Assembly: GCA_025738555.1 (NCBI GenBank)
Contig: JAOVFP010000007.1
Span: forward strand, 3,472,001-3,536,000
DNA from: Cyathus striatus
Lineage: Eukaryota; Basidiomycota; Agaricomycetes; Agaricales; Nidulariaceae
DNA: 64,000 nucleotides
Reading direction: 5' to 3'
The position numbers and the translations under genes were made by a program. Positions 13,842 to 63,040 of the stretch are shown here, one piece after another. A model generated the notes under the pieces. It worked only from the letters and a program-made list of their open reading frames with translations, ran no database searches and was not told the DNA's origin. How positions within the stretch are numbered: position 1 is the first letter of the stretch; the number at the start of each line of letters is the position of its first letter.

Positions 13842-16800
13842 ATGACTCAAACCACATCCAATGCTCAAATGTTTGCCAACGCAAACAATGTCAATGTGCT
13901 AGGTGGTCAGCAGAATGTCATTGGTCATGATCAAAACAATTATTACATTATGAAAAATGATGAAATTTCTGAAAAACTTAAGTTATTGAAGCCTATTGAT
14001 CACAACTTATATTGTCCACCTGCCTGTATGAAAGGTACCAGAGTTTCAATCCTGAAAGATATTCACAACTGGCTCAATGATTTTGGTATGTTCATCTATC
14101 TTAATCTATAAAAACCTTTTAATTTGATTTATAGATGAGTCTACTCCAAATGTTATGTGGATTACTGGTGGTCCAGGCTCTGGAAAATCTGCAATAGCTT
14201 CTACACTATTCAATACCCTCAACTCAACAGGATGGAAGAGATTAGGTGGTCATTATTTTTTTAAGAAGAATGATAACACTTTAAGTGATGCTAGTGTTGT
14301 TTGGAGAACAATTGCTGCAGAACTGGCATCTAAATCAAAGTATTCAGTAGTAAAAGAGAAGATGGCAGAGCATCTTGATAATAGCTTTCAGCTTTTAGAA
14401 ATTGATTGGCATTTCAAACATCTGATTGCTGATTCAATCATCACTTACCATGAACAACTGAAAAATGATCCTCCTGCATTTGTTATTGATGCACTAGATG
14501 AATGTAAATCATCTCATTTGTTAAGATCTCTAAATGAAACTTTACAAGACTGGGTCACACTTCCTAAGCAATATAAACTCATCTTGACTGGAAGGCCAGG
14601 CTCTCTACCAGATAAAATTCAGAATGAAAACTTTTGTAAGATTATAAAATTGGAAACTGATTCTGAACTTGACTCAGAGATAAATCAAGACATATATTTC
14701 TTTATCAAAAAAAGCTTTGAAAATCACCAATGTGAATTGCAACTTCATTCAATAGAGGATACATTACAGGTGATGTGCAAAAAAGCTGGTGGATTATTTA
14801 TCTGGGCATCTACTGCAGTCAAGTACATTACCATGGATTCAGAAAATGATGAACAACCTTCACCAACTGTAAAGCTTAAACAAGTCCTATCTGGACAGAT
14901 AGGGAATGGAGCTGATGCTCTATATTACCAAATACTTCAAGCTTCTTTTGAAAAATGGAATGAAGATAGAAAGGAAATTGTGAGACAAGTATTGGCAACA
15001 GTATTAATTGCAAAATCACAGTTGAAAAAAGAGGACATTCCACACTTCTTAGATTTTAGTGGCAATGAGAATGAAATTACAAGTGAAGTTCAAAGAATAT
15101 TACATTATCTTCAACCTGTTATTTCAATAAATGATAACAATGTAACATTCCATCATTTGTCATTTGTTGAATTTTTAGTAGGAGAAATAAATAATAAAAC
15201 ATTTAACATTAATCAAAACAAACATGTGCTAAGAATGAACAATATGGTTTTCAATATCATCAACAGTAAACTAAAATTTAATATTTGCAAAATTGAATCA
15301 TCATATGTAGCAAAAGAGGATGTTGAAAATCTATTGCAAATAAATAGCCAGTATATACCCACACATCTTCAGTACTGCAGCAAATATTGGAACATGCATT
15401 ATATTGAAACAATTGAAAATGAAGAAATTGATCATATACCTATAACAGCAGGATTAAATAAATTCTTATATTGCAAGTTCTTATACTGGCTAGAGGTCAT
15501 GAGTCTCTTAGATGAAATAAATACAGCACAAGAAATGATGAGAAGATTAGCATCTTGTACAAAGGTATTTGGTCAACTAGTTAAAATACATAAAAGGCTA
15601 AACTTCCTATAGATAGAGTTGAACCAGCTCAATTTCATTGAAGATGGTATTAATCTTGTTGCACATTTTTACATTCCCATTATAAGAAGCATATCACATA
15701 TATATATATCAGTGTTATCATTTGCACCTGAAAATTCTGTGATTGCAAAACACTACTCACCTTTCTTTGGAAATATACTTTCAATTAAGAAAGGGAGAGA
15801 CAGAGTCTGGAACTCAACAATGTATACAGTCTACTACACAGAATCATCTGTGACCAGTGTTGCATATTCTTCTAATGGAAAAGATGTTGTATTTGGCTCA
15901 AGTGATGGAACTGTCACACTGTGGAATGTCAAGAGTGGAAAAATCATTGCTGGACCATTTGAAGGCCACAGTGATTATGTGACATCAGTGGCATTTTCTC
16001 CTGATAGAACACAAGTGGTGTCTGGCTCATATGATAAAACTGTCAGAGTGTTTAATGTAGAGAGTGGAAAAACTATTGCTGGACCATTTGAAGGCCATAG
16101 TGATTCTGTGACATCAGTGGCATTTTCTCCTGATGGAACACAAGTGGTGTCTGGCTCATGTGATGAAACTGTCAGAGTGTGGAATGTGAAGAGTGGAGAA
16201 TTCATTGCTGGACCATTTGAAGGCCACACAGATTATGTGACATCAGTGGCATTTTCTCCTGATGGAACACAAGTGGTGTCTGGCTCAGATGATCAAACTG
16301 TCAGAGTGTGGAATGTGGAGAGTGGAGAATTCATTGCTGAACCATTTGAAGGCCACACTGATTATGTGACATCAGTGGCATTTTCTCCTGATGGAACACA
16401 AGTGGTATCTGGCTCAGATGATCAAACTGTCAGAGTGTGGAATGTGGAGAGTGGAAAAACTATTGCTGGACCATTTGAAGGCCATAGTGATTCTGTGACA
16501 TCAGTGGCATTTTCTCCTGATGGAACACAAGTAGTGTCTGGCTCAGAAGATAAAACTATCAGAGTGTGGAATGTGGAGAGTGGAAAAACCATTGCTGGAC
16601 CATTTGAAGGCCACAGTGATTATGTGACATCAGTGACATTTTCTCCTGATGGAATACAAGTGGTGTCTGGCTCAGAAGATAAAACTATCAGAGTGTGGAA
16701 TGTGGAGAGTGGAAAAACTATTGCTGGACCATTTGAAGGCCACAGCTCTTGGGTGACATCAGTGGCATTTTCTCCTGATGGAACACAAGTGGTATCTGGC

Positions 16801-18093
16801 TCATGTGATGAAACTGTCAGAGTGTGGAATGTGGAGAGTGGAAAAACTATTGCTGGACCATTTGAAGGCCACAGTTATTCTGTGACATCAGTGGCATTTT
16901 CTCCTGATGGAACACAAGTAGTGTCTGGCTCAGATGATCAAACTGTCAGAGTGTGGAATGTGGAGAGTGGAAAAACTATTGCTGAACCATTTAAAGGCCA
17001 CAGTGATTCTGTGACATCAGTGGCATTTTCTCCTGATGGAACACAAGTGGTGTCTGGCTCAGAAGATAAAACTATCAGAGTGTGGAATGTGGAGAGCAAA
17101 AAAACTATTGCTGGACCATTTAAAGGCCACAGTGATTCAGTGTTATCAGTGGCATTTTCTCCTGATGGAACACAAGTAGTGTCTGGCTCAGAAGATAAAA
17201 CTATCAGAGTGTGGAATGTGGAGAGTGGAAAAACCATTTCTGGACCATTTGAAGGCCATAGTGATTATGTGAGATCAGTGGCATTTTCTCCTGATGGAAT
17301 ACAAGTGGTATCTGGCTCAGAAGATAAAACTGTCAGAGTGTGGAATGTGGAGAGTGGAAAAACCATTGCTGGACCATTTGAAGGCCACAGCTCTTGGGTG
17401 ACATCAGTGGCATTTTCTCCTAATGGAACACAAGTGGTATCTGGTTCAGGGGATGAAACTGTCAGAGTGTGGAGTGTGGAGAGTGGAAAAACCATTGCTG
17501 GACCATTTGAAGGCCACAGCTCTAGGGTGACATCAGTGGCATTTTCTCCTGATGGAACACAAGTGGTGTCTGGTTCAGGGGATGAAACTGTCAGAGTGTG
17601 GAGTGTAGAGAGTGGAAAAACCATTGCTGGACCATTTGAAGGCCACAGCTCTAGGGTGACATCAGTGGTGTCTGGCTCACATGATAAAACTGTCAGAGTA
17701 ATGAATATAGACTCCACCTTAGATTACTTCAGAAAATATAAATTACTTGGAGGTACAAACATATTTGCATTACATTTTTCAGATGGGTGGGTAAAAGATA
17801 ATGATGACAATAAACTATTTTGGGTCCCTGTACATTATAGAGAACATTTTTGTACTCTTGAAACTGTTCAGATATTGCCTGATTATAAAATGTGTCAAGT
17901 TGATTTAACACATTTTGTTTATGGATCTGACTGGGCTCAATGTAAAACTGGTTCTCCAACACTTCCCAAAGATCTGAATCTTCCTACAGAACAGGAAAAG
18001 CAGAAATATATTGATATTATTTTCATTTGTCACATTATTATGATGCTAGTTGTCTCATTTTTTGTCTACATTCTGATACAACATTACAGTTAA
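13842..18093 (+). CDS. NACHT-WD40 NLR-like protein (STAND NTPase)
   Basis: This is a fungal NLR-type protein with nucleoside-triphosphate-driven oligomerisation expected from the NACHT module and ligand sensing from the WD40 propeller. I place introns at 14,086-14,134 (GTATGT to TTATAG) and 15,565-15,612 (GTATTT to CTATAG, branch-like GGCTAAAC); the second removes an in-frame TAG at 15,610. The spliced product is about 1,384 residues. The start at 13,842 gives the short N-terminal region seen in agaric relatives, with NVNVLGGQQNVIGHDQ; an upstream in-frame ATG exists at 13,788. Walker A GGPGSGKS lies near residues 93-100 and Walker B FVIDALDEC near 197-205. About 14 complete 43-residue WD40 repeats plus a shortened fifteenth span roughly 630-1,255. 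A hydrophobic helix near 1,355-1,380 could anchor the C-terminus. The gene is almost devoid of CpG, yet open throughout. The ligand is unknown. Confidence 0.9.
15840..17705 (+). repeat. 129-bp tandem array encoding the WD40 repeats
   Basis: Fourteen near-identical 129-bp units encode the framework SVAFSPDGTQVVSGS..T.RVWNVESGKTIAGPFEGH. Differences concentrate at a few codons: the two residues after GH (SD, TD, SS, SY) and the next one (Y, S, W, R), the residue before the conserved Asp (Y, C, D, E, G, H), and the one after it (K, E, Q). The final unit lacks 27 bp, removing nine residues in frame between two GTGG copies. Confidence 0.9.
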
Positions 18094-46169: not shown

Positions 46170-47024
46170 GTTGAAGGAAAAATCCAAGGTCGGTAACGAT
46201 ACTCTTAACACACATGCTTTAAGTACCCTTTAAAATATTGTTGATTTTTTGATGCAAGCGAATTCTCCATTGGGCTGTGGTACATATTTGTCAAGCTGCT
46301 CCGGCGAAAATCATGTTGCATGGCGTGGCATCAAAGCTTCATTTACAATGTCTCACAGGCTCACAGCCGATCAACGGTCGATTCTAGAGAAGAGAAGTAG
46401 AAGAGAGCGGAGGCTCATGGATAAAGGGCGAAACGTATTTAACAGCACTCTATTATATGTAGCTTATAGCAATGTACCTGCTGTATCGACCTCAAAACTT
46501 TTTCATCAGAGTACTTATTACTGAATACCTGATCATTCGCAATGAAGTTGTACGTTTACTGTACATAGTTATGAACCCACGAGCCTGGTATGACTTACAT
46601 GTTATTTCTTGTCGTGTACGTACCTAATTATCGTACTCACTCAGACACAAACTCGAACCTATTTTTGGCAACTTACAGTCGAGTGCATCATATGTAGTGC
46701 TGCGCAAAAGGGTCGGGTAATGATCGACAACTCGTAATGGGTATTCATCTGTATTCATACGCGGAGCTAACGTCCCTTGTGAGGTACATGAGGGTACACG
46801 TGATGCTGCGGATGAATACAGAAGATGGATGGATCAGGATGAGATCTATGTAAGTGACGGGGAAATAAGCACATTCACGAGCCTGAATTCAGAGAGAAGG
46901 ATTCCTACATTTTGAGCATTTCTTCCTTGATTTCGGACTGCTTAGAAGAGAATGAATTGAAATAATAGGAAACTTAGACCATGGTGACCTCTGGTGACTA
47001 GTTCACTTCTTCCTGGTCACGGTG
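46170..47024. other. Upstream region of array copy 3, left flank of the giant transposon
   Basis: No gene was seen. The probable promoter of copy 3 lies at its left side. The 9-bp target site CATCAGCTT ends this stretch. Confidence 0.45.
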
Positions 47025-47033
47025 CATCAGCTT
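47025..47033. repeat. Left 9-bp target-site duplication
   Basis: CATCAGCTT immediately precedes the left terminal inverted repeat and is repeated exactly at 62,658-62,666. Confidence 0.88.
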
Positions 47034-47165
47034 GGGCCTACAGAATTTGACGTTGCCCCGTAATTTGACGTTGCCGTGACGTTGCCAGTGAATATCTTGC
47101 GGCAACGCCAACCCTCACATGGCAACGTCACGTAACCCCACGGCAACGTCAAGCAACGTCGCGGA
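47034..47165. repeat. Left terminal inverted repeat with GACGTTGCC/GGCAACGTC copies
   Basis: The first ~43 bp pair with 62,615-62,657. Beyond it the motif continues in both orientations (GTGACGTTGCCAGTG, then GGCAACGTCACG and GGCAACGTCAAGCAACGTC to 47,161). Repeated short motifs near transposon ends often serve as transposase binding sites. Confidence 0.8.
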
Positions 47166-47169
47166 AGCG

Positions 47170-49790
47170 TGAGGGGTGGCTGTGGTCGAAGTCGACGTGA
47201 TAATGCCATGTATAGGTGAAATAGACTTGCGAATGAAAAGAAAGAAGAAAAACAGGAGAAATATATGATAAAAACTACATATATGGAAGGGAACTTGAAA
47301 TGAATATAGAAGGGTGTCCAAAATCCATAGAATATACTTTGTTGATAACGTGAGAAGAGAAAAGTACGAGGGGAGAATAACTGAACAGAGATAGATTGCA
47401 CAAAAAGAGTAACCAAATATTGTCGCCAGTGACTGAATCGCCAGGACTTCATCCTGGTCTATGTGTCAAAACGACGACGACGAGGCGGCAGTGGTGGCAG
47501 AAGGGAGGTGCTGGTGGGACTGTGGTACCGGTGGTGGGCGAGACGATGTTGGGGGGACAGAAGTGAGGGATGTGGTAGCTGGGGCCGGGGAGAGAAGCTA
47601 GGGGAGGGGGGGAAGATGGAGGACGGATGACGGAGAGGTTGACGTGGCCATCTACCAGACGACCTGCATGAACTTGAGGAACGGGACATAGAGGTTGGGA
47701 GACGTTGAGGTAGGGAGCGGGCGCTCGTGCTTGTGGGGACCAGACGACGGACGTTGAGGATAGAACGTGCCGTCTACTCCACGTAGACGGCAGTGGGACG
47801 TTGAGGTAAGGATCGAGGATGACGTTATGAAGGGTCGATGTAGTCGTCTACGCTGTGAGACGATATTTGGAGGTGGATCATCGTGAGGAGGGAGAGGCCC
47901 TATATGGCGTAGAACGACCGTGTGGGGTACGAGGGGGCGAGACGACTACCCCATGAGGTGGACTTGGAGTGGAGGAGCGTCGTCGTCGTTGGTCGTTGAT
48001 TAGTCGTGGGGGGGTGGGGGGGTGTTGTCGCCGATTTGGAGCGTAGGCGGGGTAGTGGCGGGAATCCGTTCGAAATAAGCTTTCAAAAGCTTCTTGAGTC
48101 CCCCCATCGTCCTACTTCTTAACTGAACCATATCAAACGTTCAAAGATCTAAAACTTAAACATGGCAATAGAACCAATGTTCATCAGCTATAAGGAGCAG
48201 GCTGATTTTTATAATGTGCGTACCTTTCTCTTCACTTTCTTGTTTTCTAAACAACAAGATCGTGTTAGGCTGGGGAGCGAGTTATGGTGCGCTGGGGTGG
48301 ACCGGGGGCGCGCTGGAGAGCGGCTAGGCTTATGAGCGTTCATCATCAGGGAGAGGACAATGATGAGAGGAGGGAAAGGGGGCTTGAGATCACCGAAGTT
48401 GAAGTAAGTCTCTTGTCAATGTAAACCAATTAACACTGACCCGACCTTATAATAGACAGTGCACTTCTTTGTGTGCACGGGAAGGACGCCGAAAAGTTGC
48501 TGTGTAGTAGGTTGGTATAATATACGTCGCCAGTGAGTTTTTGTATTTGTTATGTTTTTTCTACCTAACATATCTTTAGTGCTCGCGGCAATTGAATGAA
48601 ATATAAAGTACATAAATATGTAGTTTAAAAGTTGTAAAATAGTGGTCCTTAATCAATATCTTGGAAGAAACTGGAATGAGAAAGAGATGAATGGATTGGC
48701 CTAGAACGTCGGGCAACGTAAAGAACGGAACGTTCCCCACAAAAAGCCCCCTCCTATGGCATACCTCGCTCCTTCAAAATAGTAGTTGCCTAGCTAATAC
48801 GAACCTATGGCATGTCCTTCGTGTGAATCGTGTCCGCCTATGCGCTATGCAGACACAAGCGCACAAGCGTGAAGCCTAACCTGGGGTTCGTCTAACTTCG
48901 TTTTCGTCTTCGTCTCTATGATGCTTAATTCACCGAGGCAGTTCAGTATCGGTCTGCATGAGGGTAAGAATGCTTGGCCCGTGTGGGAGGTGCAGGAGAG
49001 TCCTCCTGCTTGATGCCAGTGTCTCTCTCGTTCAGTGCTTCAACGTCGGTGCACTCTTCATTATCATGACGCTGTACAGATATTGAGTTATATTAGTTGC
49101 AATTAACGATAAACACAACTAAATGAATTCATACGTTCGTTGCAGTCACCCCCGAATTACTTCAAGGTGGGAGGAAGATAGTTGGCGACGAACTCTGAAT
49201 CCTCACCAGGCAAGGACGATCTTGATGGTGTTCTGACCTAAGGAGCGGACAAGTTTGCTGATGCCGATGGCAAACCGGCTCCGATGTACTCCGTCGCATC
49301 CTAGTCTTACTTCGAGACTCGAAGTGGCTGATCGTTCAGTTCCCACTCGATCGTTGCTCTAGCCCTCCGTAGTGGAGCTGGCTATGTGCAGACCTAGCAC
49401 TGTGTTTGGAATGCTCTGGTTTAGTTGGAGTGACTATTGATCTTGTTTGCAAGCTATGAGGATTAGAGCGCTGGAATGGCAACGTCGGGCAACGTCAATA
49501 ACGGACCGTTCCCCGCAGAAGTAAGCAATTCGCGCTATGAAAGGAACGCAGCCCCAGTACGAATATCAACACTGGCACTGGATTGAAGATTTTCTTAGGT
49601 CTAGCACCTGACCAGCAGTAATAGTCATATATAAGCCAATCACCAATATCCACTACGAATGATAACTCACACAGACAGGGACTGGCACAGCCGATGTACC
49701 GAGAGAACAAAGAGGAATCAATGAGCCAATTTGTAATATAGCGGTCTTTGATGAATATCTTGGAAGACCGGAATGAGAAAGAGATAACCG
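47170..49790. other. Non-coding left part of the giant transposon
   Basis: 47,460-48,060 is G-rich on the plus strand and lacks stops in some frames through composition only. A ~90-bp block with AATATCTTGGAAGA, GGAATGAGAAAGAGAT and GGATTGGCCTA occurs at 48,650-48,705 and again at 49,735-49,800. GTCGGGCAACGT followed by AACGGA/CGTTCCCC occurs at 48,709 and 49,485. I see no supportable gene here. Confidence 0.45.
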
Positions 49791-49794
49791 GATT

Positions 49795-50070
49795 GGCCTA
49801 CAACGTTGGGCAACGTCAGGCAATGCCAGCAATGTCGGGAAACGCCAGCAATGTCCACGGGCAACGCCAGGCAACGTCACGGCAACGTCAGGCAACGCCA
49901 GTCAATGCAAGCAACGTCAGACAACGCCAGTTCTCAGATGTTCGCAACGCCAGCAACGCCAGGCAATGTCAATTCACAGAATAGCAACGCCAGGCAACGT
50001 CAATCCTCAGAGGGGCAACGTCAAGCAACGTCACATGCAAAATTGGTGGGCAACGTCAGCAATGTCACTT
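49795..50070 (+). repeat. Left subterminal GGCAACGTC/GGCAACGCC array
   Basis: Some twenty imperfect copies of a 9-10 bp motif (GGCAACGTCA, GGCAACGCCA, GGCAATGCCA) are spaced irregularly by 9-20 bp. The same motif fills 62,410-62,645 at the other end and the terminal repeats themselves. It opens long reading frames rich in Arg, Gln and Asn that are not genes. Confidence 0.85.
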
Positions 50071-50100
50071 GCAAAACTCATAGTTATTGTACACGACACT

Positions 50101-50555
50101 CTGCTTTGGAGTTACCGGAGCAGGTATACAGAAGTAAATGAATGACTACGAAGGTGTCGGTGGCGTCGGTAATGAGCCTTCCAAGCAGTTGAGAACGAGC
50201 TAGGGCGTCTGCTTTAGAATTACCAAAGCAGTTGACGAGGTGGTGGGATGAGGGAAGAAGAAATTCGGCTTTAGAAGTACCAAAGCAGTGAGGTGATGGT
50301 CATGGTGGTGTAAAAAGGAACGACTACGAAGGGTCGGTAGTGTTGGTAATGAGCCTTCCAAGCAGTTCAGAACGAGCTAGTGCGTCTGCTTTAGAATTAC
50401 CAAAGCAGTTGACGAGGTAGTGGGATGAGGGAATAAGGAAGTCTGCTTTAGAATTACCAAAGCAGACGAGGTAGGAGTATGAGAGAAGAAGAAATTCTGC
50501 TTTAGAATTACCAAAGCAGCGAGGTGATGGTCATGGTGGTGTGAAAAGTAGGAAC
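50101..50555. repeat. Cluster of CTGCTTT...AAAGCAG hairpin repeats in a partly tandem unit
   Basis: Hairpins lie at 50,101-50,123 (CTGCTTTGG / CCGGAGCAG, wobble pairs), 50,209-50,231, 50,267-50,288, 50,386-50,408, 50,443-50,465 and 50,497-50,519. The common form is CTGCTTTAGAATTACC then AAAGCAG. Part of the cluster arose by duplication of a ~180-bp unit (50,135-50,310 and 50,320-50,550), sharing GGTAATGAGCCTTCCAAGCA and GTGATGGTCATGGTGGTG. Confidence 0.85.
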
Positions 50556-50559
50556 AATA

Positions 50560-51415
50560 CGACGATAGGCCGATACTATTTGTTGTTACTGTTTGTTGTT
50601 CAATGTTTGAGCTGGAATTTAAATTCTTAGGTAATTTGTTTTACACTCGGTCAACTAGAAGAGTACTGATACTTATAGGCTCGTAAGAAGTAGGCTTAAT
50701 TATATTAAAATATAATGGGTAAAAGTAACATGTACAACACTTAATCAAATGAAATGAGTAGCAGTCTAATTTAATCTATACAGTGTTTGGAATATAAAGT
50801 AATATTTTTATTGAGTACTGTATTACATATATCTAAACTAAGTTGATTTATGTAATATACAACAATCCTTGGAGTATATTTACCAAATTTTATGGTAGAA
50901 TTAGATGTTGAAACATATATAATATGAGGATTACGGAGGAGGTCACTTTTTAGCAAAAACCAGGACTTGACACAGTATGTCACGGGTGTCACAATAATTC
51001 ACACCTACGAGTTTGGGGGGGATCAAGAGCGTGTGACAAGCCTGTGTCACTCAACGGAAATCATCAAAATCGCTACTTTCTCAGTATTTCCTTTTTAAAC
51101 ATCGCATTTCTGCCTCTATCAAGCTAATATTGGAGGAAATGTATATATGTACTGTTAAAGTATAGATGAAATTTTGTAAGAAACTACCGCAGCTAGAGAA
51201 CTTAATATTTTGGTTATAAAACTGTGCCAAGATGAGATATTTACCTGACTTCGGAGTGATCCCTATTTATCTTCCCCTCCGCTGTACATAATTTTTTCAA
51301 ACTTTTCTTGAGAAGAGAATATACACAGTAGAAAACATATGCGAAAATTCTAAGCAATACAGCAAAATGGTGAGGGAGGAGGATGAAAGCACAGGTGTGT
51401 CAAGGAGTGTCGCTG
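50560..51415. other. AT-rich region 3' of the transposase gene
   Basis: No gene was seen. It follows the stop codon of the minus-strand transposase gene and probably holds its 3' untranslated region and polyadenylation signals. Confidence 0.4.
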
Positions 51416-51417
51416 TG

Positions 51418-54400
51418 TCAAGGAACGTCCAAACTCTGTATGGTCCTTCTTTTGGGATGTGGCTTTGGGCGTGGTTTTTCTTCCATTTGAACTGGCGCCT
51501 CCGAGTCCAATTCTGATTTTTCGTACAAAGGGCCTCTCTAATAAATAGTAAGAACAATTAGCCTTTTCGAGTCATGCAATATTACAATAGCACACCTCAA
51601 AATCTTCTTCAAAGTCTTCAAAGTTTGGATCGTTCCAGCCTTCAGGAAGATTTCCGTATGGATACCAACTATCCTGAAGGGGACCGCGATCCAAACCCCA
51701 TACACCACTTCCTGCTCTTCCTGCTTGAGGTGATCTTTCAAAAAGACGTCGCTCGAATGCATATAGGCACTCTTTATCAATATCGAGACCATTCACGATG
51801 CTTGGATGGCAGTTGAGCTGGTAATTCCATGATGCCTGTAACAAATCATTGCTGGAGCTAAACTCCTTGGCATATTTAGCTGCAATATAAACCGTTACTG
51901 CATGTGCGTAAGGGATTTTTAATAACCATTCTGATGCCTTCTCGATCTTGTTGGCTCCAGGAACGTTGAGATAGAACCAATGAGCTATTTCAGCACGTCT
52001 AAGGGCTGTGAGATCGCCATAGTGATCGACTGTTCCTGGTACATGTCCTAATTCTTTGGTATTAAGCCTGTTATGAACATATACCACCGCTGGTAAATTA
52101 AATGTGTCCTTATCAGTGTCCAGAGGATCACAATCAAGTAATGATTGGAATAGCGAGATGTGAGGTTGTAAGATAGTGCTCGTTTCATTAGTTACTTCGA
52201 TATCACAGAACTCAAATATTATGTCCTCTTCGTTATGAGTTTCAAAAGAGCAGGTCCATTTTCCGAGCTATTGTCCACTTAGTACAATTTCGAATGAAAT
52301 ATGAAATGACTTACACGTTTAGCACGTCGTCCCTTCAAATCGCCCCACAGTTCATCTACAATATTCCCCAATGTGACAATGTAATATAAAGAAGACACAG
52401 ATGATTCTTGAACAATGCAATCTCGCCAGAGGCGGACTTTCCACTGACGGTGACCTATCCTGGTGATAATTCTTGATGGATACCAATGATCCCCGATGCG
52501 AATTAAAGCCCCACAGCCTGGGCTATTTAATCACTAAGTACGATTCATGTAAGAGTAATAATTAAATTGCTCACATTAACCGACTGGAAAGTTTATTCTT
52601 CTCCCAGTTTAGTGGCTTTTGAGCTCTGGAAACAATGAATTAGTGGTACTAACTAGCCACGAGGGAAAGAGATCTTACTGGGGATATGAAAACTTGTTTA
52701 ATTGTAGTAGAGGTAGAGCTGTAGGGTATAAGCATTCATCACACTTAAAGTCCATGTTGGCCTTGAGATTCGAGGCACGACCATCTCTTTGACATGCTAT
52801 ATGCATCCAAGCTCTACAAAAGTCGCACTGCACTGCACTAGACCCCTCGTCATCAATCTCCGGTCCATTACCCTTCATCCCACATCGACAATCAAAAGGG
52901 GAATCTGATACACTCTTGACTTCATTGGTTTCAACATCTCCTTGCATCGGCTCCGCATCGTCTTCCAGAGGAACAATGGCTTCATCGGCAGATTCAATTT
53001 CTCCATCATCCAGCTGCTCCGCTTCACCTTCAAGAGGAAGAGTGGCTTCATCGGTAGATTCACCTTCGTCTTCGAGTGACTTAGCGTCGTTGTTTGATTC
53101 GACTTCATCAGCAGAAACAACTTCAGATTCACCTGAATCGACTTCGGGAATTTCAATTCGACTATCATATTCTAGGGTAGCTTTCTTGATTTTGTCTGAA
53201 GCCCAGAAACAATCCTCTGGATTCACTAGAGTAAACCCTTGACGCTGGAATGAAAGGGAGGCCGCTGTAGATAAAATGCGTTTTCCATTAATCTTAATGC
53301 CAAACCGTTGTTGGATATTTCGCTTAATAGAAGTCAAGTATCGTTGCTGAGCCCTCGTTCCACCCCGTAGCCGATAAACTACACTGGACGTTAGATAGTC
53401 TTCTGGCACCTTAATACTGGGCGCAAACAAAGCTTCGTCTGGTGTTAAGTCTTGCATTTCTTTTACCAATCTGCCTTCCAGTCCATCATAGTAGTATAGC
53501 TTTGAATTAGCGGTGTGGCGTGTTATAAAATGTCGATATTTGTGACTATAGAACACATGTCCAACCATATCATAAATAACGCCGTGTTCCCCTTCTAAGG
53601 ATGGAAGAGGCGTTAGTGTCGACGGAAAGTGCCATTCTTTTGGAGGCTCTGCTGTTAGACAGCTGTCGTCAATGTTAAATATTAAAATGACCAGAATTGA
53701 CATCCAAACATCATATTTGAAGATTTTTCCGTCGCAGAGGGTCTCCTCTTCATGCGTTCTAAAGCAGTTGAATGGTCCTTTCTCGTCGAATTGAATACGA
53801 GATTGTAGCCACAGAGTAACCTTGCCATTGTAGCTCTTGAAGTCGTCAAGAGAAAGATCATTGTACATGCGCCTCAATGGTGTTTTGGGGATGTGCACGT
53901 GTATTCCATCTGTAGATCGACATTCTCCAACAGTAATTTCTAGCCGTTCAAAATACAAATGTGCTAGATAACTTTTGTCACTACTTTCATTCTGGATAAT
54001 AGCGTAAAACCAAGACTGCGAATTATTTATTAGTGAATACAGAGAAGAAAATAAATAGAGATAATACATACCCACAGTGTGTTACATTTATCTTCAGTAG
54101 TGTCTCCAAGCTTACGAATTGTCAAAGATTTCCTGAAAGCATCCCGAGATGCACTCAGAATCTCTATAATGCCTTTAGTCTTGGGTGTCTTCTGAGCTCG
54201 CTCCCACTGCTTGAACAATTTCAGAAATTCTGAAAATGTTGAATCACCAAGAACTTTTCCAGACGTATTCTTGAAGTTCTTAGAATTACACTGAAGCGCT
54301 TCAAAAAGGAGTTGTAATGACGAGTCAAGCCAGCAGGAATTACGATACCACCCAAAACAGGGCAGTCCAGGGGGCTTCTTTTTATAGGATTTACAAATGG

Positions 54401-57400
54401 ATGTCTTATTTGAACTAGGGAGCACTTTCACCGATTTTAGAGGAACTTCAAGCGCCGGAACCGTATCAGGTGGTTGTCCATCATTTACATACACATAATT
54501 TTCCGTTGTCTTTTTCACTTTCATTTTCTTTTTGGGCGGCAGTATAGGCTCAGCTATAGAGTCTGTATTATCTTCATCATCCACGTTGGCTTTCCTTTTC
54601 TTTTTGGGGAGCTGTATAGGCTCAGATGTAGAGTCCGTATTATCTTCATTATCCTCATTGGCTTTCCTTTTCTTTTTGGGCAAGGGTGCATCCGTGTTAT
54701 CAGACGGTCCAGCTTTCCTGGTCTTTTTGGGCAAGGGTGCATCTGTGTCATCAGGCGATCCAGTTGTCTTTTTAGCTTTCCTTTTCCTTTCGGGCGGGGG
54801 TAAAAGCTCTCCTGGAGTGTCGGGAGGGCATCCGTCACTCTTCTCATTCTTGTTTTGAAAGTTACGGGACTTGCGTCTCTTACCCTTCCAACGATTAGCC
54901 CGGCCGTAGCGTATTATAGCACCATCTAAAAATTACAATTAGCTAAAAGTGATATTTAAATTAAAGTATGTACACCTACTGGCAGTCGCTTTAAAAAGCA
55001 TGTCGTAACTTTCTGCTACAGCATGAAGCGAATATAGTCCATTCTCGAAGAGGTGGTCACGTCCTTGAGTGCAGTAGATCTTCCAATGTTGGGCTTCCAC
55101 AGCATTTGTTGTTTCGGGCATTGAGTCCCAAATAGCAGGTTCCATAGTCCTCTTCGAAACAAATAGCATCGACGCTGTGGATTCACGTAGGTACCAATTA
55201 AGCCACGGCCTTGCTAAAGGAAAGTCGTACAAGACAGTTTGCACGTCTTTTCTAAACTGATGCACACCGCCGCAGTTCAACAGAGCCATCATTTTCTTTT
55301 TGAACTCCGGAACCCTTTCTGGCGAAACGACTCCATGAATGCGGGAAATTCGAGTAATATTGGCCCGAAAGTGTTCTCTGCAGCCTTTAAGTAAGCTTAT
55401 AGCTACTTCCGACAGCTCTTCTAATGTACGTGCATCATCATTGGCCTTCCTAACATCAACAAAAGCCTCTATAAACCCATTCCTTTCTGCTTCACTGAAG
55501 TCCATGACCTAGAACAATGGGTTCAATAACTATATAGATCTTTATTCGAATAAAAACTTACCCCAGCGAAGCAGTCATCCGGAAGATCTACATCCTGAAG
55601 TCCTGCTTCCCGATACATGCTATTGAAAAGTGCCTGAAAATGCTTCGCATAATGTTTTGAAGTTCCTCCTTCACTATACGAGAACATCACTGGAAGCCAA
55701 CTTGACAGAAGTACGGAGTAAATGGAGGAGATGATCAGAATAGAATTACTGTTCTTCCACCATCCATGGGTTGCGTCACTAACGAGACCGTTAATAGGAC
55801 TATCAGCACGCATTTCGAGAAGCATTTGAGATGCCATAAAGTCAGACTGAAAAGAAATAACTAATTCGGTTTTAATCCAGGCTTCCACGACAAAATCAGG
55901 ATATGTCTTCTCGAATTTTCTGTAAGATCGATAATCAAACCCAGCGCATGGGTTAAGACCTTCAGCCTTAATAATCTTATTCCAGTCATACGATATCCTG
56001 TCCTTGTTTGCATAAACAGGGGCTATCTCTACAGCCGGAATCCCAGGTTTTCCACTAACACTCTTTGCGCCTGAGTGAAGCTGTGCAGGTTTCGCTGCAG
56101 GATGATTTTTAACAGTACCTACAAATTGCTTATATTGACGTGGTAATGGGTGTATCTCCTGCCCAGGCTTCTCGTGACAATGGTACCCTTTGTTCTCGAA
56201 ATGAACACCTCCAGCCCAGGTGTATTGCGATGACTGAACCCCACAGTCAACATGGTACAACTGTGCAGTACAACTGCACACTCCATATGAGATTTTGGCA
56301 CCCTTTTTAACATGAGTAAGTCCTCGTAGGACAATCTTACATCCTGAGTTAATGCAGACCATAACACCTTGACATTTACGGTCCGTAACCTTGCCTTGCA
56401 TCCAATGATCAGCGTCAACTGAACCATGTCGTCGCCTCCCATTGGTTGACCGAACAACCCAGTGGTGCAAAAGATTGCCAGTTAATTTAACGTAATTATG
56501 GGACATGTCGATTTCAATATTTCCGTTTGGATACCCATCCCACCAAGTTATTTCGGGATCCCACTCTTCTAATTCTAATTCTGTACATTTCGATTGGTGG
56601 CCAGCTTCCCTATTTTGTTGCTTAGGAGATCGTTGAGACCGTAGTGCACATACAGTCTTCTTTGTCCGGTCATCCGATTCTCTCTCAGAGGATTCATGGA
56701 TACGGTGGCCAGCTTTCTTATTTTGTTGCTTAGAAGATTGTTGAGACCGTAGTATGCGTGAAGATTTCTTTGTCTGGTCATCCGATGTATTTTTATGGTG
56801 AACAGATTTCTTTGTCCTCTGGTAGCATGTAGCCTTCTTTATCTTCTGGTTGTCCGATTCGCTCTCAGAGCTCTCAGAGTCATCCTTCTATACCAGGTAA
56901 GTTATAACATACGTGACAACTGTAGAATGAGGATATTACCTTTTTATGCCTAGGAGACTGTGGTATATGTACAGTTTTCTTTTCCTTCTGGTTGTGTGTA
57001 GCCTTCTTTATCTTCGGGTCGTCCGATTCGCTCTCAGAGTCTTTAATCTCTGACTCAGAGTCACGTACATGAACATACTTCTACGCAAGGTAAGTTATAA
57101 CATACAGGTTAACTATAGAGCGGGGATCTTACCTTGGTCGTCTTTTTTGGTGTAGGAGATCATTTGATATCTTCAACCTCACTAAGTATATGTACAGTTT
57201 TCTTTATCTTTTTGGGGAGTATAGCCCTCTTTATCTTTCGGTCGTCTGATTTGGATACAGAAGCCGAATCCTCTGTCAGTTTACGTTTATCAAGTTTGGA
57301 ATCAGAAACGGGAGCTTCACGATCAAAGTCGCTCTCCGATTCAATCAATTCGACCGATTCGACCGATTCGACCGCAGAAAAAAGTGTCAGGGAATCGCTC

Positions 57401-58394
57401 CCTGATTCGGAGGCTTTAGATAGAAATGGACGAGGGGGTGCTGCTTCAGAGAGAAGAGGACGGGGGGAAGCTGCTTTTGAAAGGAAAGGATGGGGGGTAG
57501 CTTTCTTTTCAGGGCGTTTCCCCGGTTTCTCTTCCTTGATGATATCCTCGACGGAATTAGAAAGGAGCGGGGCTTCTTTCACCATAACCTCTCTGTTTTC
57601 ATCACCTTTGGCGTTAGAAGTGCTATCTACGGATATATCTGCTATGATTGCAATTGACGGGATACCCTTTGATTCGGAGGCTTTAGATAGAAATGGACGA
57701 GGGGGTGCTGCTTCAGAGAGGAGAGGACAGGGGGAAGCTGCTTTTGAAAGGAAAGGACGGGGGGTAGCTTTCTTTTCAGGGTGTTTCCCCGGTTTCTCTT
57801 CCTTGATGATATCCTCGACGGAATTAGAAAGGAGCGGAGCTTCTTTCACCGTAACCTCTCTATTTTCATTGCCCCCAGCATTAGAAGTGCTATCTATGGA
57901 TATATCTGCCACGATTGCAATTGACGGAATATCCTTTGATTTTCCGTCCACAATGTCAGTCTTAGCCCCTTCTGCTGCCTTATTAAGTCCTCAGTATCAG
58001 TACTACGAATATTTATATCATATTGGTGAATATCTCACCTTGCCCCCGGACCCAACATTAGCTTTGACATGGGCATCATCTGACTCATCACAGCTTGCTT
58101 CAACATAGTAGAGAACGTTTCCTGATAGGAAGAAAGAGTTCACTGACAAATCATATTTATTAAATATAGATTCCTTACCAGTTTTCCGATCTCTAACTTC
58201 ACATAGCTGTTTTTTGGTTTTTTTCTTCACTGGTGATTCAGTAACTTCAACCGGCTGCACGGACTGTTTTTTGGTTTTTTTCTCCATTGGTGAATCAGTA
58301 ACTTCAACTGACTGCACGCTTGACTCGGACAATTGTCGCTTCCGTTTCTTTTCATGTTTGAATAGTTCAGATATGAACCGTGCAACATTGGGCT
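51418..58394 (-). CDS. Fused transposase: GCM/WRKY zinc finger, DDE core, USP-like peptidase, PHD finger
   Basis: Inferred exons (minus): charged N-terminal exons from 58,394; 56,887-55,562; 55,508-54,980; 54,925-54,072; 54,015-52,679; 52,625-52,575; 52,522-52,315; 52,267-51,596; 51,537-51,418. All joins use GT-AG and keep frame. The GCM-type finger reads DRKCQGVMVC, GVCSCTAQLYHVDC, then FENKGYHCHEKPG. Likely catalytic acidic residues are in LVSDATHGWW, GVMDFSEAE and TTNAVEAQHWK. The chain continues RYGRANRWKGKRRK, Lys-rich repeats, a Cys box WYRNSCWLDSSLQLLFEAL, a His/Asp box RHFITRH...YYYDGLEG, a Cys4-His-Cys3 PHD-like finger (CRCGMKG, CDFCRAWMHIAC, CDEC) and WYPSRIITRIGHRQWKVRLW. Oddity: an in-frame TGA at 57,160-57,162 among the N-terminal repeats must be spliced out, bypassed by a later start, or is a lesion. 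The first exon is unresolved. Confidence 0.8.
56880..57150 (-). repeat. Tandemly duplicated exon-intron unit in the transposase N-terminus
   Basis: Two consecutive exons encode ESESDNQKIKKAT and ESESDDPKIKKAT. The introns before them both contain GTATGTTATAACTTACCT and start GTAATATCC or GTAAGATCC, so exon plus intron was copied together. A third, shorter protein repeat (SSKQQNKKAGHRI / SPKQQNREAGHQS) lies just downstream within one exon. Confidence 0.75.
57400..57960 (-). repeat. ~255-bp coding duplication in the transposase N-terminal exon
   Basis: Two copies encode VKEAPLLSNSVEDIIKEEKP followed by a Pro/Lys/Ala/Ser-rich stretch (PRPFLSKAASP). They are over 90 percent identical by eye and keep frame, giving a disordered, charged region ahead of the zinc finger. 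Confidence 0.8.
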
Positions 58395-58439
58395 GAAGGA
58401 GACACTGTTTATTACTCTCAAGTACTTACTAGATATCAA

Positions 58440-59635
58440 GGACTTACAAATGACATTAGAGTTGCTGTAGTTGTGCTTCGGAGTTTCGTAGAGAGCTAAA
58501 GGAAATGAAAAGAAAGAAAAACTGCTTTGGAGTTACCTGAGCAATTGTAAAGGGGGCTGTAGAGAGCTAAAGGAAAGGAAAGGAAGGGGGGCGCTGCTTC
58601 GGAGGTACCAAAGCAATCATAAAGGGGCTGAGGGAATAGAGACAGCTTTGAAGAGAGCTAAAGGAAAGGAAAGGAAAGGAAGGGGGGCGCTGCTTCGGAA
58701 GTACCAAAGCAATCGTAAAGGGGCTGAGGAAATAGAGACAGCTTTGAAGTTACAAGAGTCGTAAAGAGCCAAAGAGCCAAAAGAAAGGAAGAGTACTTTC
58801 GAGTAACAGAGCAACTTAAAGGGGGAGGGAAGAGAGTAACTGCGAACGCTTGGAATTTCAAAAAAAGAACCCCCTTGAGCAGAGTCGGACTCAGAAAAAT
58901 AAAGTACCAGCTGCATTAGGACACCGACGGGCTGACAGCTACCGATCACGTCGCAAGCGAGGTATAGACATGGAGAATAGAAATACATGCCTTAGAATTA
59001 CCAAGGCATGTTCGTGGGGAGAGAGATATGAAGATACATGCCTCAGAATTACCGAGGCATGTTCGTGGGGAGAAAGAAACGAAGATGAGAATAGAAATGC
59101 TTGCCTAAGGAGGCTGTGCGTGCTGAGATAATCAAAGCTCAAATATGGACCAACAAAAAATTTCTGCTCAAACATTGAACAACAAAAAGGACAGCTTTCT
59201 CGCTTCTTTTTATAACATCGCGTCGCTGCTTCGGCTTTCTAAGGCTGACGCTCTCCCCCCTACTTAGGTTTTTCCAAAGTAGACCTTCCCCTCTCCCGCT
59301 CCTTCACCATTACTTTCACACCGCTACCATATCGCTACTTAGGTACTTCCAAAGTAGGCGCCCTCCCTCCTTTACCATCATTTTCACACCACCACCACTT
59401 CGCTACTTCGCTACTTCCAAAGTAGACGGACGCTCTCTCCACTCCACCGCATCGCTGCTTCGGTACTCTAAAGCAGGCGCTCTCCCCTCCCCCTATCTTC
59501 CTAGTTTCCTTCGGTTACCGCTTTTTGGTAACTCTGGCATCGCATCAAACCCTTTGCCGCCCTTTACCCTACCTCTGCTGGTCAGTCTACTCCATATCCA
59601 CCCCTTGACGTTACACTAACTTCTTTCCTAGCAAC
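58440..59635. promoter_or_regulatory. Divergent intergenic region with hairpin repeats in opposing orientations
   Basis: This separates the minus-strand transposase and plus-strand cargo genes, so it should hold both promoters. Hairpins at 58,522, 58,594, 58,690, 58,986 and 59,037 have loops of the AGTTACC/GAATTACC type. Those at 59,226, 59,260, 59,335, 59,403 and 59,455 have the reverse-complement loop type (GGTACTT, GGTACTC). Purine-rich GGAAAGGAAAGGAAGG repeats lie at 58,570-58,685 and CT-rich tracts precede the cargo gene, as is common in fungal promoters. Confidence 0.6.
58986..59061. repeat. Two hairpins showing a compensatory base-pair change
   Basis: 58,986-59,010 pairs CATGCCTT with AAGGCATG. 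59,037-59,061 pairs CATGCCTC with GAGGCATG. The loop (AGAATTACC / AGAATTACC) is conserved. One T-A pair has become C-G with both arms changed. Confidence 0.85.
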
Positions 59636-62254
59636 ATGGCTTATCCTCCACTGGATCACTCCAATGGTCGTGCAATTAGGTCTAAAGGATGTGTGTTCTA
59701 TTCGCCCAACGCCACTCGAAACATTATCGTCCCAACATGCTACAGCGAAAATATGTATCTCTTCCGTAGCGACGCCTTGCTCAATGAGGTTTTTCAAAAA
59801 CCTATCTGGTGGTCCGATCCATATGGCTGGCTCTCGTTTGTCCCCTGTGCGCCATCGTTCATGGGCATCTTTTCTTGCCTCGCTGGGGCACCACGTATCA
59901 CGCGTCCTGATGGCGAGCATCAGTTCGGGTTGGATGAGACCTCTCTGCGCGAATGGTCTCAATTAGAGTCTCGGCTGATGTTCACCTACAAAATGCTTGC
60001 AATAAAATATGGGACTCTTGCCATCACTCCAGCTCCTCCTTCCTTCTCTGGATATAAAAGAAAACATAATACCAGAGAAATCGCGCGAAGATGTGCTGAA
60101 AATTCCCGCAGGTGGTTCGTATTGTGGATGGGGCTTCTCTCATATGCGATCGCCATGAGTGATAGCCAGTCCATCTGCCATGATAGCAACTCTGTTATGT
60201 ATCCCGAATGGTACACTTATCTCGCTGGATGTACGATTCCAGAGAGTCAGTGTACCATTCCGGAGACTTGGCTAACTGGAATACAATCGTCAATGATTTG
60301 TAATTTCTCCAAGCCTTGTCTTCGTGCGGGAATCATCGTTGATATTCCAGAACTTCAGAAAACTCACTGCCCGATGTATCCTTTCTTCTTGAAATTCAAC
60401 ATCCCATTCTGGTATGCATGGGGGCCTTACGAAAAAAGGCAATCTCAGGATTTCCAGCCATATAAGGCCTTAATACCTTCGCTGTCTATTGTACGGAAGG
60501 ATTTAAGTATTGTGGAGAGGCCTGATGACTATGTTCGACGTATTGAATGGAAAGAAACTTCATTTGCCCATGTGCACCCTGCTGAATCCGCTTCCCCTGC
60601 ATTGGCCCCATCATTGCAAACTTCCTCTCAACCTCCACATCCGCCCGCATCCTCTAATGTCAACAAATCAAAGCCTGCGTGGAAAGTGTTCTTGGAATCT
60701 CGTGAAGCTCATTATGAAGCTAGATGGAAAACAGAGACAGAGCAGCAACGCCAGACTCGCTTAAGTCGCGAACGATCTCGAGGTTGGATTAAGGCAAGAG
60801 TTTATGAGTGGCAACTAGATGACAACGACCCCCCTGTTTATATCAGGGTAAGGATTGATGGTAGAACCGCCAAGGAGTTGGTGATGGAGCAGTATGGCAA
60901 TAACCAGATGATATTCAACTCTTATGACAACGAGTGGGACTTGTGCGAAGAATTTGGATCCCCAGATTCAGATTCAGATTCAGATGAAGCCGAGCCTGAG
61001 CCTGCGTATGACGCCTCTGAGGATACATATACCATGTCTGATGCCGCGCGTGTTGTACAAACTTCCCATTTCGAGCATTCCCTTCCCATTTCACTCATTC
61101 CCCCTCAGGATGATGAATCCGATGATAGGGAAGATGTAGTCTCTCTCGATGATCTGTCCCTTTTTTATGGGTTCACGCACTCGGATCGAGTTACGGTAAC
61201 AACCACGTACAATTGGGACGACATGATGAGGGCCATTGGTTACATTGGTGGAGTTGCCCAAGCTCCCAATGACCGTCTTAAAACTTCGATCACCAGCTTC
61301 ATTGGGCCGTTGACACAGGGGTGTGCCCCCCCGAGTGCATTATGGGACATTCACAATACTAGGGATTTGCACAAAGAAATTATTGGCACATGCCGTGTAT
61401 ACAAGGTGCAAAGCTTGTATGTAGTGGTGCCGCATTCTGATGCTCAGAATGTTACCTGGTATTTCGGTGTAACGACAGCCCGTGATGCACTTTATGCATG
61501 CAGACTTCTCTCTGTTGTCGACAACATGACTGTGTATGGCGTGGCACGAGAATTTCTAGCTAGAGGTATTCCTTTCCATACGCTTCGGGAGCCACGGATA
61601 TCCTCTGCCGTGTCATTGAGCACCGATCCTGTCGTTAGCACCTGTCGTCTTCCAGGTTATAAGTTTACCTATAACGACTATGTTTCCTATGTTGAGATAC
61701 GTAAAGCATTTCTCAATTCTCCTCATGGGCGTGCAGCTTTACTTATGGGAGGGATTGTCAGACGAATAGCACGGGAACATCTTAGTTTCGATGGGGCCCT
61801 TCATGGTCCATCTTCTTCTGTGACTAATCACCAGATTGGAGTATGATATGTTCACAGTTCAGGATGGGAGCTATGCGACAATGGTCTCACTGAATATGAG
61901 GCTTGGATAGTATGTGGATGCTATATCATTTACACTAGTAAATTTTATTTTTTATATGACTATGATTATTATTGATGAGACTGGTAAGGTCAAATGCAGA
62001 AAAGTATTGTATCTTGGTGGCCACTTCCTGGATGCTGGGCACGTGAAGATAATGGTCAAAAATGGGGCTATTGGTCCCCATTTAATGAATATTGGTATGA
62101 AAAACGAGTGAAGGACATCAGATCGGGAGCGATGAAGCCTGAAAGCAATCTGGTTTGGCGGCAATGGCTCAGGGCAAATCACTTTGCTCGGACCTTACGA
62201 CAGACTGTGGAAAAGGAGTCGCATGACTATCTTGAATGTTATTTACAAAACTAA
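59636..62254 (+). CDS. Cargo protein of the giant transposon, unknown function
   Basis: The first exon starts MAYPPLDHSNGRAIRSKG in a good context (CAACATGGC) and stays open for over 720 codons. I infer a first intron at about 61,806-61,862 (GTCCAT to TTCAG, branch-like GACTAATC) and a second ending TGCAG at about 61,992; the last exon reads KSIVSWWPLPGCWAREDNGQ to the stop at 62,254. Visible features are SRLMFTYKMLAIKYGTLAI, a basic coiled stretch (ARWKTETEQQRQTRLSRERS), an Asp/Glu-rich linker near residues 440-500 and a conserved-looking C-terminal Trp-rich block. No catalytic signature is evident. I believe similar proteins occur widely in Agaricomycetes as hypothetical proteins, but cannot verify this. 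Its divergent position next to the transposase and inside the TIRs suggests an element-encoded accessory factor. Confidence 0.75.
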
Positions 62255-62404
62255 CCATTGCTTGCTACATACGTAACCACTGTAATGTTTTATATTTTAT
62301 TTTGCAATACATATACATCGATGCTTGTAGCTTGGAACTTAAGAAAATTTTGCAGAAAACATCGAACACAAGTCTAGCAAGCAACCATCAAACCTCTTGA
62401 GTCT

Positions 62405-62657
62405 TAGTAGCAATGCCAGGCAACAAACATCACACCAAGTCTAGCATGCAACGTCAAACCTCTTCATGGCAACGCCAGACTGCAAGACGGAAACGCCAGG
62501 CAATGCCAGACTGCAAGACAGAAACGCCAGGCAACGCCAGACTGCAAGACGGAAACGCCAGGCAATGCCAAAGTCCAATTACCAATGGATGGCAACGTCA
62601 CTGGCAACGCCACTGGGCAACGTCAAATTACTGGGCAACGTCAAATTCTAGTAGCCC
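62405..62657 (+). repeat. Right subterminal GGCAACGTC array and terminal inverted repeat
   Basis: GGAAACGCCAGGCAATGCC / CCAGACTGCAAGAC units repeat three times with ~30-bp spacing (62,470-62,575). GGCAACGTCACTGGCAACG and two copies of GGGCAACGTCAAATT follow up to the terminus. The last ~43 bp mirror the left terminus. Confidence 0.85.
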
Positions 62658-62666
62658 CATCAGCTT
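62658..62666. repeat. Right 9-bp target-site duplication
   Basis: CATCAGCTT, identical to 47,025-47,033, directly follows the right terminus. Confidence 0.88.
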
Positions 62667-62753
62667 GCATTAGCCAATCAGAGGGCCAGCCCCGTATGTA
62701 GCCCGAAATTCATCAAATCAGCATATCAACAAACATTTTCACATGGTATCTAC

Positions 62754-63040
62754 ATGTCGAGACTGGATAACACGCGAGTCGCCTTCGCATATCTCTCAAC
62801 CTATCTCAGTCCCTCCGATGTCCTACCAACATGTCGAACCCACCAACAGCACATATGCTGCAATGGTCAGCTATATTTCTCTATATTATGCACAGTAGGA
62901 CTATGTAGTTAGACCATGGGTGTATAGGAACCTCGTCGCAGGCGTTGTATATGGGGCTGTAATAATCAAGGGGTCTCCAGAAAAATATTATAAGACCCAG
63001 GGTCGGAAAATTTTGAAACAGCTCTGTGCTGTGGACTAAC
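62754..63040 (+). CDS. Possible 5' part of an F-box-like gene
   Basis: ATG at 62,754 opens MSRLDNTRVAFAYLSTYLSP and continues SDVLPTCRTHQQHICC. A possible intron (GTCAGC to GCACAG, about 62,867-62,896) leads to VVRPWVYRNLVAGVVYGAV and YYKTQGRKILKQLC, then a stop at about 63,039. The arrangement (short leucine/cysteine-containing box, then RPWVYRNLV) recalls fungal F-box proteins, but the evidence is thin. The frame is interrupted soon after, so it may be a relic or contain further introns. Confidence 0.25.

Follow-up and report, generated by a model that had tools for sequence, protein, structure and literature searches.

Mutator-like elements (MULEs) are characterised by terminal inverted repeats, target-site duplications of 8-11 bp and a DDE transposase with a CH motif, and a WRKY-GCM1-type N-terminal zinc finger is common among them, though not universal (PMC6446971, PMC5225508). 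Phantom/Muta and Hop elements have this organisation, with the finger present in many of them, and arthropod MULEs span 1.4-10 kb (PMC13359780). Some MULEs additionally encode a cysteine peptidase directed at ubiquitin or SUMO, such as Kaonashi and other Ulp1-bearing MULEs or the OTU-bearing MuDR-6_HM, and Rehavkus has a PHD finger, the duplications being of 9 bp where stated for these elements (PMC6117577, PMC2836005, PMC6446971). Elsewhere, Ginger1 has a transposase with a C-terminal Ulp1 or OTU domain and, in one family, a PHD finger, and the Trichomonas protein XP_001314237 combines transposase_11 with a C19 peptidase, the presence of a C19 peptidase beside an IS5-like transposase being cited as a precedent (PMC2836005). 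Fungal TET/JBP transposons and the Helitron VTD deubiquitinases carry enzymes proposed to act against host silencing or protein turnover (PMC12730594, PMC9741609). We have analysed a 15,624-bp element of Cyathus striatus located at positions 47034-62657 (contig C7:3519034-3534657) of a 64,000-bp stretch of DNA, hereafter the window (C7:3472001-3536000), using for comparison the whole genome of 107.45 Mb in 24 contigs.

We consider it highly probable that, taken as a whole, this element is a Mutator-like cut-and-paste DNA transposon of Agaricomycetes. It shares with Phantom/Muta and Hop the inverted repeats, the duplications, the catalytic motifs and the zinc finger, and differs from them in that its long protein of about 2,150 residues is a fusion with a USP-fold domain and a PHD finger which escapes the Pfam MULE profile, while its family spans 14-26 kb rather than the 1.4-10 kb of arthropod MULEs. 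As in Kaonashi and MuDR-6_HM the predicted peptidase would be directed at ubiquitin or SUMO, but Ulp1 belongs to family C48 and OTU to another peptidase family, whereas the fold here is that of USP (C19/C98), and in contrast to those MULEs the peptidase, the PHD finger and the GCM finger are united in one fungal transposase protein. Ginger1 and XP_001314237 belong to other transposase superfamilies and other hosts and have no GCM finger; TET/JBP proteins are dioxygenases, VTD is a different deubiquitinase class, and their transposases are unlike the present one. Thus, this kind of arrangement has precedents in the Ulp1, OTU and PHD domains of MULEs and Ginger elements and in the C19 peptidase beside an IS5-like transposase, and in the literature searched the combination as such seems to be new.

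The 15.6-kb stretch is a genuine transposon and a single mobile unit, as confirmed by its end-to-end copies, which lie in unrelated flanks and have their own duplications. The boundaries of the window copy are as follows.

47025-47033, forward strand: left 9-bp target-site duplication, CATCAGCTT
47034-47075, forward strand: left terminal inverted repeat of about 42 bp, GGGCC(T/C)ACAG type; other long copies share the left-type end
62616-62657, reverse strand: right terminal inverted repeat, GGGCTACTAG type
62658-62666, forward strand: right 9-bp target-site duplication, CATCAGCTT

The left end begins with GGGCCTACAGAATTTGACG at 47034, and the right end, read on the opposite strand, is GGGCTACTAGAATTTGACG, finishing at 62657. 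The inverted-repeat core comprises 34 nt with 97% complementarity and reaches about 42 bp once the outer 8 bases are added, which agrees with the repeats of some 43 bp put forward in a preliminary description of this DNA; the exact 9-bp duplication also proposed there is found on both flanks, with no third occurrence of CATCAGCTT anywhere in the window.

Using a 34-letter end pattern with up to three mismatches, we obtained 71 matches in the genome (37 forward and 34 reverse), and since the same pattern read backwards returned none, these ends are well beyond chance. Pairing joined 46 of the 71 ends into 23 elements, five of them long (14.4, 15.4, 15.6, 17.2 and 25.7 kb) and 18 short (1.2-6.0 kb), and the two end types are combined in all complete elements. 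At these fixed ends an exact duplication of 9 bp flanks 11 of the 23 elements and one of 10 bp flanks six, none being flanked by exact duplications of 7, 8 or 11 bp. One mismatch is present in three more (8/9 in the copy on C1; 9/10 in L051 and in L056), and the remaining three, L044, L047 and L055, have poorer duplications, the three scores being 6/10, 6/9 and 7/9. As a control, the left flank of one element was compared with the right flank of another, and in 506 such combinations the match was at best 7/9 or 7/10. Three further long copies were completed separately, on C21 (15.2 kb, exact duplication), C13 (16.3 kb, exact) and C12 (21.5 kb, 8/9). Hence, besides the window copy there are seven long copies of 14.4-25.7 kb for which both ends were located and which have individual duplications of 9-10 bp, as would be expected from the earlier proposal that other full copies should have different duplications; including the window copy, six of the eight are exact and two match at 8 of 9. 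The flanks of these eight copies (14 flanks of 156-350 bp) show no mutual similarity at E 1e-3.

The window element aligns end-to-end with the C18 copy (97% identity) and nearly so with those on C1 (95%), C6 (about 94%) and C5 (about 92%), the alignments with C6 and C5 being interrupted by roughly 9 kb plus other insertions and by smaller insertions, respectively. The left and right host flanks each have one relative, 91-95% similar, and the two relatives adjoin each other on the same contig (C7:174200-174805) with the element absent; aligned to the joined flanks, this site has a single CATCAGC at the junction. An empty site with one duplication, which the preliminary description had suggested looking for, is in this sense found, but because of small indels near the junction, one of about 10 bp over the last two duplicated bases and another about 20 bp upstream, it is a paralogous site and not an allelic one; most of the check suggested in that description is thereby answered. 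The host region around the insertion (window 46734-62957) is thus duplicated on its own contig at 91-95% identity. Two short derivatives of this transposon family, each of 1.5 kb with exact 9-bp duplications, are located 12 kb to the left (C7:3459808-3461283) and 31 kb to the right (C7:3567304-3568766) of the window. About 40 further places in the genome, for example C4:5857707-5861683 (L061), contain transposase or peptidase exons at 26-41% identity, with element ends located at none of them; judging from these sequences, the genome harbours several additional, more distant families built in the same way.

The closest copy, C18, differs from the window element by 232 transitions and three transversions over 15,595 columns, from which the jump of the element is judged to be recent, in line with the activity previously suspected. 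In this comparison 180 of the 235 changes (77%) are of the C-to-T type at CpG, a share that is 50-77% in the other four copies compared. Transitions at CpG dominate the differences among copies C7, C18, C1, C5, C6 and C21, the pattern expected of methylated transposons, and the type of substitution suggests that the copies are probably methylated. Internal stops in the copies include many TGA codons, as expected from CpG decay of CGA.

The main coding unit of the element is a long gene modelled from splice signals, whose start and N-terminal exons are uncertain.

51412-58456, reverse strand: long gene, 12 exons, 2,151 codons
58456-58448, 58392-58039, 57978-57133, 57080-56940, 56887-55562, 55508-54980, reverse strand: exons 1-6
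54925-54072, 54015-52679, 52625-52575, 52522-52315, 52267-51596, 51537-51412, reverse strand: exons 7-12
55562-56887, reverse strand: exon with the GCM-type zinc finger and the first catalytic Asp of the DDE triad
54980-55508, reverse strand: exon with the second catalytic Asp, the C-x2-H motif and the catalytic Glu
52925-54400, reverse strand: USP-fold cysteine peptidase, in two exons, with Cys, His and Asp boxes
52730-52895, reverse strand: PHD finger, its C4HC3 pattern read from the sequence

The modelled protein contains, in order, the GCM zinc finger, the DDE transposase, the USP-fold domain, the PHD finger and a further C-terminal part. The family profile of the zinc finger matches 1odh (E 1.9e-9), in agreement with the finger recognised earlier. 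The connection between WRKY and GCM1 fingers is reportedly due to Babu et al. 2006. The DDE triad is present with C-x2-H between the second Asp and the Glu, the residues being assigned by motif order, and 57 places in the genome match the exon that contains the first Asp, at identities ranging between 98% and about 26%. Each of the 17 first-round homologues, which come from many Agaricomycete genera, is similar to the transposase part as well as to the peptidase part; overall, nearly every homologue belongs to the Agaricomycetes, a rust contributing one weak match. The preliminary description, which had named a fused regulatory transposase, had missed the peptidase and the PHD finger.

In the peptidase the boxes NSCWLDSSL (Cys, near 54335), RHFITRH (His, near 53530) and YYYDG (Asp, near 53490) make up a Cys-His-Asp/Asn catalytic triad that is present and conserved, and the peptidase exon 54015-52679 has 63 matching places in the genome. 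A USP fold is found in the predicted structure of homologue P0007. The domain resembles enzymes by which ubiquitin or SUMO is taken off proteins. We refer to it as USP-fold, and not as a member of PF00443 or PF15499, because its profile scores lie below the cut-offs. As for the PHD finger, the single sequence matches PF00628 at E 4.6e-4 (20.6 bits, under the 24-bit cut-off) and the family profile matches the Bye1 PHD at E 1.9e-7.

The assignment to the Mutator-like elements is the best fit to the duplication length, the motif order and the zinc finger; indeed, exact duplications of 9 or 10 bp, within the MULE range of 8-11 bp, are found in 17 of the 23 end-pairs. In a viral structure library the transposase is most similar to O92526, an uncharacterised protein of a bracovirus (E 7.4e-10); the literature records MULEs in a polydnavirus, and O92526 may or may not be one. 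A number of results weigh against our interpretation. The Pfam MULE profile PF10551 has zero matches across this genome, and the five transposase pieces match no MULE family; we therefore name the element Mutator-like, the superfamily given in the preliminary description holding for the traits just listed and not at the level of profiles. Single-sequence Pfam matches for the GCM and PHD fingers are weak or absent, though the family profiles are clear. For the peptidase, Pfam scores are below the curated cut-offs (C98, 15.6 bits against 27; UCH, 13.0 against 23.9), a profile search of solved structures with the peptidase alone returned nothing convincing (an unrelated kinase as the best match, E 0.52, and USP5 at E 1.6), the structure was predicted for a homologue and not for the window protein, and the triad Asp is replaced by Asn in six and by Lys in one of 66 homologues. 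An anti-silencing or stabilising role is something that we only infer. Finally, exon 3 of the long gene contains an in-frame TGA upstream of the transposase part; among the seven window-like copies that align at this position, C7, C21 and C1a carry the stop and C18, C5, C6 and C12 lack it. Because of it the autonomy of the window copy is doubtful, and this copy may be non-autonomous: the intactness noted earlier for the ends does not extend to the N-terminal part of the long gene.

The element also contains a second gene and two repeat systems.

59636-61846, forward strand: second gene, 736 codons followed by TGA, divergent from the long gene
47048-47151, unstranded: left cluster of subterminal GGCAACG(T/C)CA repeats
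49488-50058, forward strand: internal GGCAACG(T/C)CA cluster, also in related copies
62468-62643, forward strand: right cluster of subterminal GGCAACG(T/C)CA repeats, with a 31-bp tandem repeat
50101-50512, forward strand: second repeat system, CTGCTTTRGARTTACC (AAAGCAG) units, downstream of the long gene
58522-59476, unstranded: second repeat system, cluster between the two divergent genes

The second gene, previously described as cargo, has a constant position in the order of parts, both in the window-like copies and in the more diverged C13 and C1b, and has 74 matching places in this genome. It has 24 homologues, one from Cyathus at 45% identity and the rest at about 25-33%, and it gave neither a profile match nor a fold match. 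It is probably shortened by a nonsense codon, since the sequence past the stop, in frame, still resembles the C-terminus of the family; this codon is found in C7, C18, C21, C6 and C1a and is absent from C13, C1b and C5. In comparisons with C13 and C1b (values in that order), dN/dS is lowest in the second gene (0.25 and 0.24), higher in the C-terminus (0.43 and 0.32) and in peptidase plus PHD (0.55 and 0.48), and highest in the transposase exons (0.63 and 0.71), all these values being inflated by post-insertion CpG decay. Judged by these ratios, the second gene is under stronger protein constraint than the transposase. Its relatives at about 50% lie apart from any matching transposase among the matches listed. 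Four of about 17 distant relatives (C2:5805626, C12:1499084, C3:4654414 and C16:2856289) are 11-18 kb from a match to KDZ (Kyakuja-Dileera-Zisupton), three of the four on the same strand as, and downstream of, that match. Because its relatives occur away from the transposase, some of them near KDZ, the second gene may be shared between transposon superfamilies, by analogy with TET/JBP genes, which move between them (PMC12730594).

Both repeat systems claimed earlier are enriched in the element: 21 of the 22 window matches to GGCAACG(T/C)CA fall inside it, shuffling predicting 0.12 in the whole window, as do 16 of 19 to CTGCTTTRGARTTACC with up to three mismatches (1.82 expected likewise). The GGCAACG(T/C)CA repeats are read as putative transposase binding sites. 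The segments at 48.65-48.75 and 49.46-49.83 kb (window 48650-49830) repeat each other at 85% over about 90 bases, which may reflect a duplication within the left arm. Outside the element, at window 15862-17648, a 129-bp unit is repeated in tandem 13.9 times with 91% identity; the unit resembles WD40 repeats, as in fungal NLR-type genes.

MULEs typically capture genes (PMC6446971, PMC6431247), and the element could be an ordinary, Pack-MULE-like one with captured host fragments, in which peptidase, PHD finger and second gene are passengers that contribute nothing to its movement. The stops that several copies have in these exons would suit such passengers; nevertheless, the transposase-peptidase fusion common to all 17 first-round homologues, the conserved catalytic triad, and the lower dN/dS of peptidase plus PHD and of the second gene relative to the transposase exons make this explanation unlikely. 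KDZ elements duplicate 7-8 bp of their target. Membership of KDZ, Plavaka or another mushroom DNA-transposon superfamily is suggested by their abundance in this genome, with 150 Plavaka and at least 159 KDZ profile matches, and by the four second-gene relatives near KDZ; yet there is no KDZ or Plavaka match within C7:3519034-3534657 among the matches listed, nor a Pfam match to either in the transposase pieces, so that we give it very little credence. In fact, Kyakuja makes duplications of 7 bp and Plavaka of 2-3 bp (PMC12730594), whereas those found here are of 9-10 bp. KDZ membership in particular was rejected, no KDZ transposase domain of the element being among the matches listed and no exact duplication being of 7 or 8 bp. 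Segmental duplication of the host region instead of transposition, which the duplicated insertion-site region on C7 might evoke, is refuted by the different flanks, own 9-10-bp duplications and common end points of every long copy and by the element-free paralogue.

For the Mutator-like transposon, a mechanism may be outlined by comparison with related families, in which the GCM zinc finger of the long protein would bind the ends and subterminal repeats and the DDE core would cut and join, short end-bearing copies probably being mobilised in trans. With less assurance, the peptidase might strip ubiquitin or SUMO, its substrate being either the transposase to which it is fused or proteins of chromatin or repair present at the element. 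The PHD finger could conceivably read histone tails and so guide the peptidase, whose action might then stabilise the transposition complex or let it escape silencing, or might clear ubiquitin or SUMO marks where target chromatin is silenced or damaged. The second gene would be a conserved accessory gene. Tentatively, these elements can be read jointly as a large Mutator-like lineage of mushrooms with a chromatin-directed deubiquitinase or deSUMOylase borne by the transposase and targeted by PHD, and with a counter-silencing second gene shared among superfamilies. It is possible, at a similarly low level of confidence, that the PHD finger directs the protein to nucleosomes of the CpG-methylated, silenced element and that the peptidase acts there on silencing or degradation substrates.

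These results indicate that Mutator-type elements of at least 15 kb can move whole in a fungus. A USP-type peptidase joins Ulp1, OTU and VTD among the enzymes carried by transposons, and unrelated elements appear to gain such enzymes repeatedly. Since the peptidase belongs to the same polypeptide as the transposase and has conserved catalytic residues, its role can be tested with single point mutants, and the long-standing question of ubiquitin- and SUMO-removing enzymes in transposition becomes addressable. Were the joint counter-silencing reading true, this lineage would possess a built-in counter-defence parallel to that of the TET/JBP-bearing transposons.
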